Assembly: GCA_029052995.1 (NCBI GenBank)
Contig: JAIDHZ010000058.1
Location: 1 to 37,394 of the forward strand
Direction of reading: 5' to 3'
DNA length: 37,394 bases
From: Lachnospiraceae bacterium
GTDB taxonomy: Bacteria > Bacillota > Clostridia > Lachnospirales > Lachnospiraceae
The translations under genes and the position numbers were made by a program. The notes below the pieces were generated by a model, which was not told the DNA's origin, searched no databases, and saw only the letters and a program-made list of their open reading frames with translations. This document shows, one piece after another, positions 2,458 to 4,652 of this stretch. Each line of letters opens with the position of its first letter. Position 1 is the first letter of the stretch.

Positions 2458-3750
2458 TTATTTTTCTAATTTCCAGATGTGTTTATTCTGCCTGAAATAC
2501 AGGCATATTCCGATTCCTGAAAAGGCAATGACAAAGAATAAAAAGGCTGCACCGGAGCCTTTGCCATTTCCAAACATTTGTACCGGAATACTATTCTCGG
2601 ACTGTGTTGCCATAACCGGTTCAAATATCCGGTCCACTAAAAATCCACCCAAAAAATAACCAATCGGTATTGTGAAAAACTGCAATGAATTTCTTACAGA
2701 ATATACCCGGCCCTGCATTTGTTCCGGTACATGTAAACGCAAAATGGCATCCAGATTGGTACTCATGAGTGGTATAAAAATCCAGCCGAGAAAACCGCCG
2801 ATACACCAGACAAGTGGCGTTTTGCCAAATGCCAGCAGGAAGTTTTCCGTACTCATGGAAAACAGCAGGCAGTTGCAGATTACTCTGACCCGGCTTTTTG
2901 GTGTTTTCATAAAAGATGCCAGTATGCTTCCTACAAATGTGGTAATACCGATTACCGCATTGACCAGTCCCAGTACTTTTTCGCTTCCTCCATTTCTGGA
3001 AAGCATCATTGCCGGGAAGGCGGCATCATAAATGGATGCCACTAAATTGATTGCCGCCAGAAACAGAATCAGATTAAAAATCCCCTGTTCCTGCTTTAAG
3101 TAATGTATCCCACTTTTTACGGAAATCAGCAGCTTTTCCTTTGCTTCTGTACCGTTCTCGTTTTCAGGAATCCGGATTCCGAATGCCAGCGTACAAAATG
3201 CAATGCAGAAGGTAAACAGGTCAAAAGCAATCACTGCCCCCATGCCTGCTATTCCTAGAACTGCCGTAGCAATAATCGGTGTCATAATGGAATTAAGGGA
3301 GCTGGCAAAGTATCTAAGCCCGCCTACCCGCTGGTAGTATTTTTTCGGGAGTACTCTTGTGGTTGCTACCTCCGATGCCGGCTGCTGCACGGTATTCATC
3401 AGCCCATTTACCGCATTGATGACATAAAGATGCCATATCTGTAAGGTGTTGCTTCGTAATAAGAACAGCATAATAATAGTTGTCAGTGCAGCGACAGAGT
3501 CACATACCAGCATGGTAATTTTTTTATTCCATTTGTCACTGAGAGCTCCTGCGAAAATGCTGAGAAGCACATAAGGTGCATAGGAACTTACCATCAAAAG
3601 TGCGGTCATTAGGGCAGACCCTTTCTGAGTATAAGACCAGATAACTAGCGCATAGCTTGTTATAGCACTGCCAAGACCGGAAAATGACTGGGTAATCCAA
3701 AGCAGTAAAAATGTTTTTATTTGTTTTATTGTTTTTATATAATTTTTCAT
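2458..3750 (-). CDS. MFS efflux transporter (DHA3/Mef-like)
   Basis: 430 aa, about 12 TM; FAGALSDKWNKKITMLVCDSVAA MFS A-motif-like loop; RBS aaggag 8 nt before ATG. Confidence 0.85.
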   Translation of the reverse strand: MKNYIKTIKQIKTFLLLWITQSFSGLGSAITSYALVIWSYTQKGSALMTALLMVSSYAPYVLLSIFAGALSDKWNKKITMLVCDSVAALTTIIMLFLLRSNTLQIWHLYVINAVNGLMNTVQQPASEVATTRVLPKKYYQRVGGLRYFASSLNSIMTPIIATAVLGIAGMGAVIAFDLFTFCIAFCTLAFGIRIPENENGTEAKEKLLISVKSGIHYLKQEQGIFNLILFLAAINLVASIYDAAFPAMMLSRNGGSEKVLGLVNAVIGITTFVGSILASFMKTPKSRVRVICNCLLFSMSTENFLLAFGKTPLVWCIGGFLGWIFIPLMSTNLDAILRLHVPEQMQGRVYSVRNSLQFFTIPIGYFLGGFLVDRIFEPVMATQSENSIPVQMFGNGKGSGAAFLFFVIAFSGIGICLYFRQNKHIWKLEK

Positions 3751-3800
3751 AGACTTTGCTCCTTATCTTGTAGCCAAATAGATTTGAGTTATTGAAATTT

Positions 3801-3862
3801 GCAAAGTCTTAGAGCAGTTTCTCTACTCCATGCAATCCTGCTCTAGAAGACTTTGCATGGAG
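3801..3862 (-). promoter_or_regulatory. Attenuator-like competing hairpins in MFS 5' UTR
   Basis: Stem B: 3801-3817 with 3838-3856 (17 bp, 2-nt bulge). Stem A: 3826-3835 with 3853-3862 (10 bp). The two are partly mutually exclusive. Confidence 0.6.
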
Positions 3863-3884
3863 CTGTTGCAATGCATAAAATCAT
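3843..3884 (-). CDS. Putative 13-aa leader peptide MILCIATAPCKVF
   Basis: Minus strand ATG ATT TTA TGC ATT GCA ACA GCT CCA TGC AAA GTC TTC TAG; its 3' end forms one arm of stem B; aagagag 10 nt upstream. Confidence 0.45.
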   Translation of the reverse strand: MILCIATAPCKVF

Positions 3885-4127
3885 GGTGTGTTGACTCTCT
3901 TATAATTATTTTGTAATATCGGTTATTTCAATTTTATCATAATAGTTAATGGCGGACAAGCTCATTCAGATAAAAGACAGGAATTGTATTTTATAGAATT
4001 ATGCTCTAAAATACAAGGTAGAGTTAAAAAGTGGGACGGCTCAGCTTATGATAATGATACAAAACAGTATGGAGCAGGAGATACATTACAAGAAGAATGG
4101 AAGAATACGTACCGGCAAATGAGATGA

Positions 4128-4253
4128 AAAAAATCACGGAATAGGACTTTCCAATGTGGAGGATGCAGTTATTCGAAATTGGGGGTTTTGGAGGATACAC
4201 AGCAAGAAAATCAGTTCCGATGTGTGGTAAAATTAAAAATAAATGACCGTTAG
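4128..4253 (+). pseudogene. GHKL sensor histidine kinase (AgrC-like) C-terminal remnant, frameshifted
   Basis: KNHGIGLSNVEDAVIRN, then a frame change at ggggg, then VLEDTQQENQFRCVVKLKINDR*; HGIGLSN is the G2 box of GHKL ATPases. Confidence 0.6.
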
Positions 4254-4436
4254 AGCACTTAAGTGTAAGTCTAATTTATTCTACGTACATAGAAGGGGAT
4301 TATACTTACACCAAAAGTCACATTTCTTGTATTTATGCAGCTTATAACGCTATATACAATATTGTAAGAAGAATTCCATTGCGGAACTATAGTTTAATGA
4401 TTGTTGCATAGGTAATTGGAAATTTAAGGAGAGAAT

Positions 4437-4652
4437 ATGAAAGAAAAGATAAAAACTATTAGATTGATGATTGCAGGTTTGCAAATAATTTTAGGTATTA
4501 TAACAGTTATTATTGGTATATTGGTATTTAGGGGAATTGTTGATTTGGCTGTTGCGATTTTATGTTTGCTAATGTGTGTAATTTTAACAGCATTAAATCT
4601 ACTGATAACAGTAATTCAGTTGCGGAAAGATAGATGGGAAAAAGGTGAGTAA
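4437..4652 (+). CDS. Small two-TM membrane protein
   Basis: 71 aa, two hydrophobic segments, RBS aaggagag. Confidence 0.55.
   Translation: MKEKIKTIRLMIAGLQIILGIITVIIGILVFRGIVDLAVAILCLLMCVILTALNLLITVIQLRKDRWEKGE

Follow-up and report, generated by a model that had tools for sequence, protein, structure and literature searches.

The window (i.e., the whole 37,394-nucleotide stretch of Lachnospiraceae DNA analyzed here) raises the question of whether a short leader ORF and the competing hairpins that follow it form a switch for the transporter gene downstream and, if so, what this switch senses.

Leader ORF and competing RNA segments upstream of the transporter gene

The candidate regulated gene (positions 2458 to 3750, minus strand) encodes a 430-aa DHA3-type MFS transporter with MFS_1 and MFS_3 matches. 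With a score of 95 bits against Mef(A) (cut-off, 675), the protein is far from Mef. The leader ORF (3843 to 3884, minus strand) has 13 codons (MILCIATAPCKVF; ATG at 3884-3882 and stop codon TAG at 3845-3843), is kept in orthologs, and has a poor Shine-Dalgarno (SD) sequence of its own. A predicted promoter (TTGTCC-17-TAAAAT, with TG before the second hexamer; 3931 to 3959, minus strand), which is a consensus match only, lies upstream of the leader ORF, as do all promoters predicted in this way. No Rfam family reached the gathering score for the window or for 12 related loci, and a permissive search gave only noise. An ECF-type sigma factor gene followed by a zf-HC2 anti-sigma-like gene (1184 to 2331) is convergent with the MFS gene.

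The putative switch comprises four segments of the minus strand. Segment A (3838 to 3862) contains CUCCAUGCAA (3862-3853), which pairs with segment B (UUGCAUGGAG; 3826 to 3835), as well as GCAAAGUCUU (3856-3847) and AGAGCAG (3844-3838), which pair with segment C (CUGCUCUAAGACUUUGC; 3801 to 3817). Segment D (AAGGAGCAAAGUCU; 3751 to 3764), the MFS SD sequence and spacer, is the other partner of C, with which it pairs through GCAAAGUCU; its GGAGC can also pair with GCUCC of A. When the minus strand was read again, all coordinates of the original prediction proved correct: GCAAAGUCUU and its complement (3810-3801) are both present, a second copy of its first nine nucleotides (3759-3751) sits between AAGGAG (3764-3759) and the MFS start codon (3750), and the competing stem between 3862-3853 and 3835-3826 is exact at 10 of 10 positions. 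The A:C stem also exists and is longer than had been claimed, with AGAGCAG (3844-3838) and CTGCTCT (3817-3811) extending it to a total of 17 bp.

Conservation and covariation of the layout

Orthologs lacking the mini-ORF and compensatory stem changes had been named as evidence that would speak against a leader with competing hairpins. The orthologs instead bear out this arrangement: their stems have changed in a compensatory manner, and their leader is conserved through synonymous codons (see below). Among 47 nonduplicate MFS orthologs with a readable upstream region, which were judged by eye and by pattern, 43 share the same order, i.e., a short leader ORF ending in A, followed by B, C, and D at the MFS SD sequence and start. 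These layouts include 29 that are window-like, with a leader ending in LCIATAPCKV, and 14 that form a sister family (leader MLCHxIIDLSxxLCTRS...), in which the A, B, and C sequences differ from the window type and the partner of C is the start codon region itself. The switch is absent upstream of the MFS orthologs L008, L024, L046, and L048, and it is also found in a Treponema MAG (L051). At three loci (L076, L091, and L123), it precedes broken or truncated MFS genes, and in L091 it is largely kept. A sister-family switch (L029) has a leader ORF (MPNLN) that stops upstream of A and may represent a natural leader mutant.

When 49 distinct loci were aligned with MAFFT, 97.6% of the cells of the A:B helix were paired, and 7 of its 10 pairs showed two-sided changes. 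Its covariation score was 0.170, compared with 0.099 for shuffled and 0.012 to 0.050 for slid versions. For the A:C helix (96.3% of cells paired; 43 two-sided cells), the score was 0.399, compared with 0.227 for shuffled and 0.018 to 0.138 for slid versions. None of the shuffle controls in this analysis allows for relatedness among the sequences. Only 24 to 50% of cells were paired in the slid controls for the two helices. A:C covaries likewise in the sister family. Because both helices use columns 8 to 11 of A, they are mutually exclusive, and their covariation provides the two alternative conserved RNA structures expected of an attenuator. The C:D duplex of the window has a predicted energy of -12.7 kcal/mol (z-score, -4.6), and complementarity at the start site has a mean z-score of -2.7 relative to shuffled start regions across 86 loci. 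Native C:D combinations were better than swapped ones in 55 of 85 loci, which is a weak contrast given the near invariance of C and D. The fold of the window itself (z-score, -2.25; 4 of 200 shuffles) is modest taken alone. Judged by comparative analysis, i.e., by the layout shared among orthologs and the covariation of both competing helices, the switch is an arrangement beyond chance.

Selection on leader residues and on RNA

We numbered leader codons backward from A, so that -5, -4, and -3 are codons before A. Leu at -5 (codon 3 in the window) occurs in 56 of 65 MFS-type leaders and is encoded by all six synonymous codons; the synonymous share at this position was 0.70, compared with an expected 0.46 and a maximum of 0.55 in 100 shuffles. 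The residue at -4 is Cys, Thr, Ala, or Ser in 55 of 66 leaders (Cys in 39 of 66). Ile at -3 is nearly always encoded by ATT, and peptide selection is not separable from RNA selection at this position. The codon usage indicates that the MFS leader is under peptide-level selection, and the ORF, which is conserved and shows more synonymous variation at -5 and -4 than expected, appears to be the short leader ORF of an attenuator.

Segments A, B, and C, on the other hand, are conserved as RNA, since A is read in different frames in different classes (e.g., APCKV and LHAKS). Such strong RNA conservation across differing leader frames is also what would be seen if a protein or small molecule bound the RNA directly, as in a riboswitch or regulator site, with the leader being incidental. 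We regard direct binding as highly improbable, because leader residues are retained through synonymous codons, leaders vary by gene type as expected of a sensor, and the sister family has the same architecture with a different sequence.

Predicted effect of a stalled ribosome

We masked the RNA with a ribosome footprint (-15 to +15 relative to the P-site nucleotide), one codon at a time, and calculated the accessibility from the SD sequence to the start codon, with edges good to approximately one codon. Across 85 loci, predicted accessibility was 0.32 with no ribosome, rose to 0.49 to 0.51 with the ribosome 3' edge at +3 or +5 in A, and returned to 0.29 to 0.32 once the edge was at +9 to +15; shuffled controls were flat (0.45 to 0.48). 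Only a ribosome whose 3' edge is about +2 to +6 nt inside A opens the start site in the simulation. A gain of >0.1 was found for 64 of 85 loci, compared with 17 of 85 shuffled ones, and the sister family, despite its divergent RNA sequence, peaked at 0.51 at +3. The median numbers of predicted pairs were 8.4 (A:B) and 6.5 (C:D) with no ribosome, 9.7 (A:C) and 0.2 (C:D) with a stalled ribosome, and 8.2 (C:D) with a ribosome over A. Together with the C:D duplex, the simulation places the SD sequence and start codon of the main gene in a sequestered state in the predicted OFF structure. The window alone showed a small contrast, weaker than that of the average locus (0.48 with no ribosome and 0.52 when stalled), and its accessibility fell to 0.31 to 0.38 only after the ribosome moved on. 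Its minimum free energy structure with no ribosome, A:C with GCUCC paired to GGAGC, would be a second OFF form.

These observations are consistent with a ribosome-operated translational attenuator controlling the MFS pump, a reading to which we assign a probability of roughly 80%. Without stalling, A:B and C:D would form and keep the gene OFF; in the window, A:C with the anti-SD sequence GCUCC of A on GGAGC of D may serve as an alternative OFF state. A ribosome that completes the leader would cover A and leave C:D, which is also OFF. A drug would stall the ribosome with codon -4 or -3 (Cys4 or Ile5 in the window) in the P site, such that its 3' edge covers just the first 3 to 6 nt of A. This would block A:B and A:D and leave the 3' part of A free for C; A:C would then form, D would open, and the pump would be translated. 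The stall position is a prediction of the masking simulation, as a ribosome at the peak has its P site on leader codon -4 or -3, the region of conserved leader residues. The motif at this position in MFS leaders is Leu-[Cys/Ala/Thr]-Ile.

The polarity could in principle be opposite, with a ribosome stalled over the leader end freeing C for D and shutting the gene off, and a ribosome placed over the whole of A did give C:D in the simulation. Conserved residues and peak accessibility, however, both fall on codons -4 and -3 rather than on the leader end, and a drug that represses a resistance gene makes little sense; we therefore give the opposite polarity very little weight. Under the attenuator that is opened by stalling, the drug sensor would be the leader residues at the predicted stall site.

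Distribution of the switch and the genes behind it

Searches with two covariance models (R1 and R2; E-values are rough) detected the switch at three taxonomic levels: 39 of 392 genomes had it in the order set, 24 of 391 in the class set, and 6 of 300 in the phylum set, and each number includes the query genome itself. That genome has a single copy, at the MFS locus (R2); an Lsa-like ABC-F gene on contig 327 of the same genome (L173) has no R2 or R3 match. Similar DNA was found neither in PLSDB plasmids nor in INPHARED phages, and pattern scans of IMG/VR yielded just two matches, one of them a Vat-operon contig and the other palindromic.

The genes downstream of the 71 distinct loci fall into the following groups: DHA3 MFS genes or MFS remnants (41 loci); genes for CD3324-family small proteins, several followed by Vat-type acetyltransferase genes (13 loci); genes for ceramidase-like 430-aa proteins (6 loci); Cfr, Lsa ABC-F, CatA-like, and SpoU methyltransferase genes (2 loci each); and an APH-type kinase gene and a radical SAM gene (1 locus each), with 1 remaining locus without a gene class. 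In full-length checks, scores were above the cut-off (in parentheses) for Cfr at 677.8 bits (468) and Lsa at 759.7 (750), both against NCBIfam, SpoU at 90.7 (29.7), and APH at 54.9 (23.2), and below it for Vat at 240 (300) and CatA at 214 (270). Further switch loci are CatA-like L135, Lsa L162, and, weakly, CatA L155. When Cfr, CatA, Vat, and Lsa genes were searched in 128 genomes of the class, most had no switch; it was clear before one Lsa gene (L162) and probable before one CatA gene (L155; E-value, 0.03). Contig 61 of genome G820 carries tandem Lsa ABC-F and Cfr genes with a separate switch copy before each (L120 and L097).

The CD3324-family protein, which is small and HTH-like, is encoded first behind the switch (L080, L084, L085, L087, L089, L090, L092, L094, L116, L119, L122, L124, and L126) and a gene for a Vat-type acetyltransferase or an alpha/beta hydrolase often comes next. 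The six 430-aa proteins (L058, L063, L064, L065, L068, and L071; leader MRLTIxFSPCKV...) match neutral ceramidase weakly (PF04734, below the cut-off) and are possibly an unrecognized resistance enzyme.

Because the switch also precedes Cfr, Lsa ABC-F, Vat, CatA-like, and SpoU methyltransferase genes, it tracks resistance to ribosome-targeting drugs. The original prediction that the window switch senses such a drug is better grounded by its presence before Cfr, Lsa, Vat, and CatA-like genes, and we infer that it does so. From the types of downstream genes, induction by subinhibitory drug concentrations would be expected, and the inducer would be a drug that targets the 50S peptidyl transferase region; naming a phenicol- or oxazolidinone-like compound is guesswork. 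Stalling by chloramphenicol and linezolid is strongest with Ala in the penultimate position, followed by Ser/Thr (PMC8987054). We conjecture by analogy that Cys, Ala, Thr, or Ser at -4 meets a similar rule, which would require codon -3 to occupy the P site; the Gly-Leu-Asp leaders of CatA genes do not fit this rule.

Leaders of the other gene classes carry different residues near the predicted stall position, in motifs seen at few loci: Thr-His at -4/-3 is shared by Cfr and Lsa leaders (L097, L098, L120, L121, and L162), Vat operon leaders mostly have Asn and then Asp/Glu, and CatA leaders are mixed, with Gly-Leu-Asp in three (L117, L118, and L135) and CI in one. These differences bear on the possibility of an amino-acid attenuator, in which a shortage of charged tRNA would make the ribosome pause at Cys or Leu codons and the MFS protein would transport an amino acid or a thiol. 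Such a pause would agree with the frequent Cys at -4 (39 of 66) and with the Leu at -5, but Thr, Ala, and Ser also occur at -4, the Cfr, Lsa, Vat, and CatA leaders have other residues there, and the genes behind the switch are drug resistance rather than amino-acid genes, making this explanation most unlikely.

The best reading of the comparative data is a common RNA switch combined with interchangeable sensor peptides, in which other 50S-drug resistance genes would use the same RNA with different leaders. We consider it reasonably probable, with less confidence than for the attenuator at the MFS gene itself, that this represents a modular cross-gene device in Clostridia, i.e., one conserved three-partner switch with interchangeable 3- to 4-residue drug-sensor motifs at a fixed upstream distance, reused for MFS, Cfr, Lsa ABC-F, Vat, CatA-like, and SpoU genes and operated by stalling with specific 50S drugs. 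The proposed motifs are Leu-Cys/Ala/Thr-Ile, Thr-His, Asn-Asp/Glu, Gly-Leu-Asp, and Asp-Leu-Ser. If so, a single RNA regulator would be common to resistance genes that are not related to one another, cfr and lsa among them, and the stall codon predicted for each leader would make clostridial drug-and-peptide stalling rules directly testable. The switch could also flag unnamed likely resistance genes, such as the CD3324-family heads of Vat operons and the ceramidase-like 430-aa proteins.

Comparison with known attenuators

A search of mostly open-access journal articles found no published description of the element. Among described systems, mef(E)/mel of streptococci is controlled by macrolide-induced transcriptional attenuation (PMC4335068) and shares with the window a leader peptide before a DHA3-type MFS gene; the window differs in lacking the terminator and in the distance of its MFS protein from Mef. 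In Clostridioides difficile, the cplR leader couples an intrinsic terminator to a very short uORF, MRI (PMC10201436). Like the present switch, it is clostridial and combines a 50S-drug resistance gene, a uORF, and SD sequestration (PMC10201436), whereas the leader described here is longer and has a defined predicted stall position. As transcriptional attenuation is used by many related resistance genes (PMC4335068, PMC10201436), a terminator in the leader was considered as an alternative. Our search of positions 3650 to 4450 found no intrinsic terminator, and C:D spans the SD sequence and start, followed by coding sequence with no U run. We therefore consider transcriptional attenuation very unlikely, like the other alternatives discussed here, and translational attenuation remains our preferred reading.

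In the erm/cat-type attenuators (e.g., ermC, ermB, and cat-86), a drug-stalled ribosome on a short leader ORF selects between alternative hairpins, and the OFF structure sequesters the SD sequence and start. The window switch resembles them in its leader ORF, its alternative hairpins, and the predicted sequestration of the SD sequence and start, and stalling would complete the likeness. To our knowledge, its leaders match no known leader peptide. The topology also differs: erm-type attenuators have 1:2 and 3:4 in the off state and 2:3 in the on state, whereas the proposed states here are A:B with C:D (off) and A:C (on), with A swapping between B and C, and C between A and D. Finally, unlike the erm/cat systems, one RNA switch is common to at least five resistance-gene classes.
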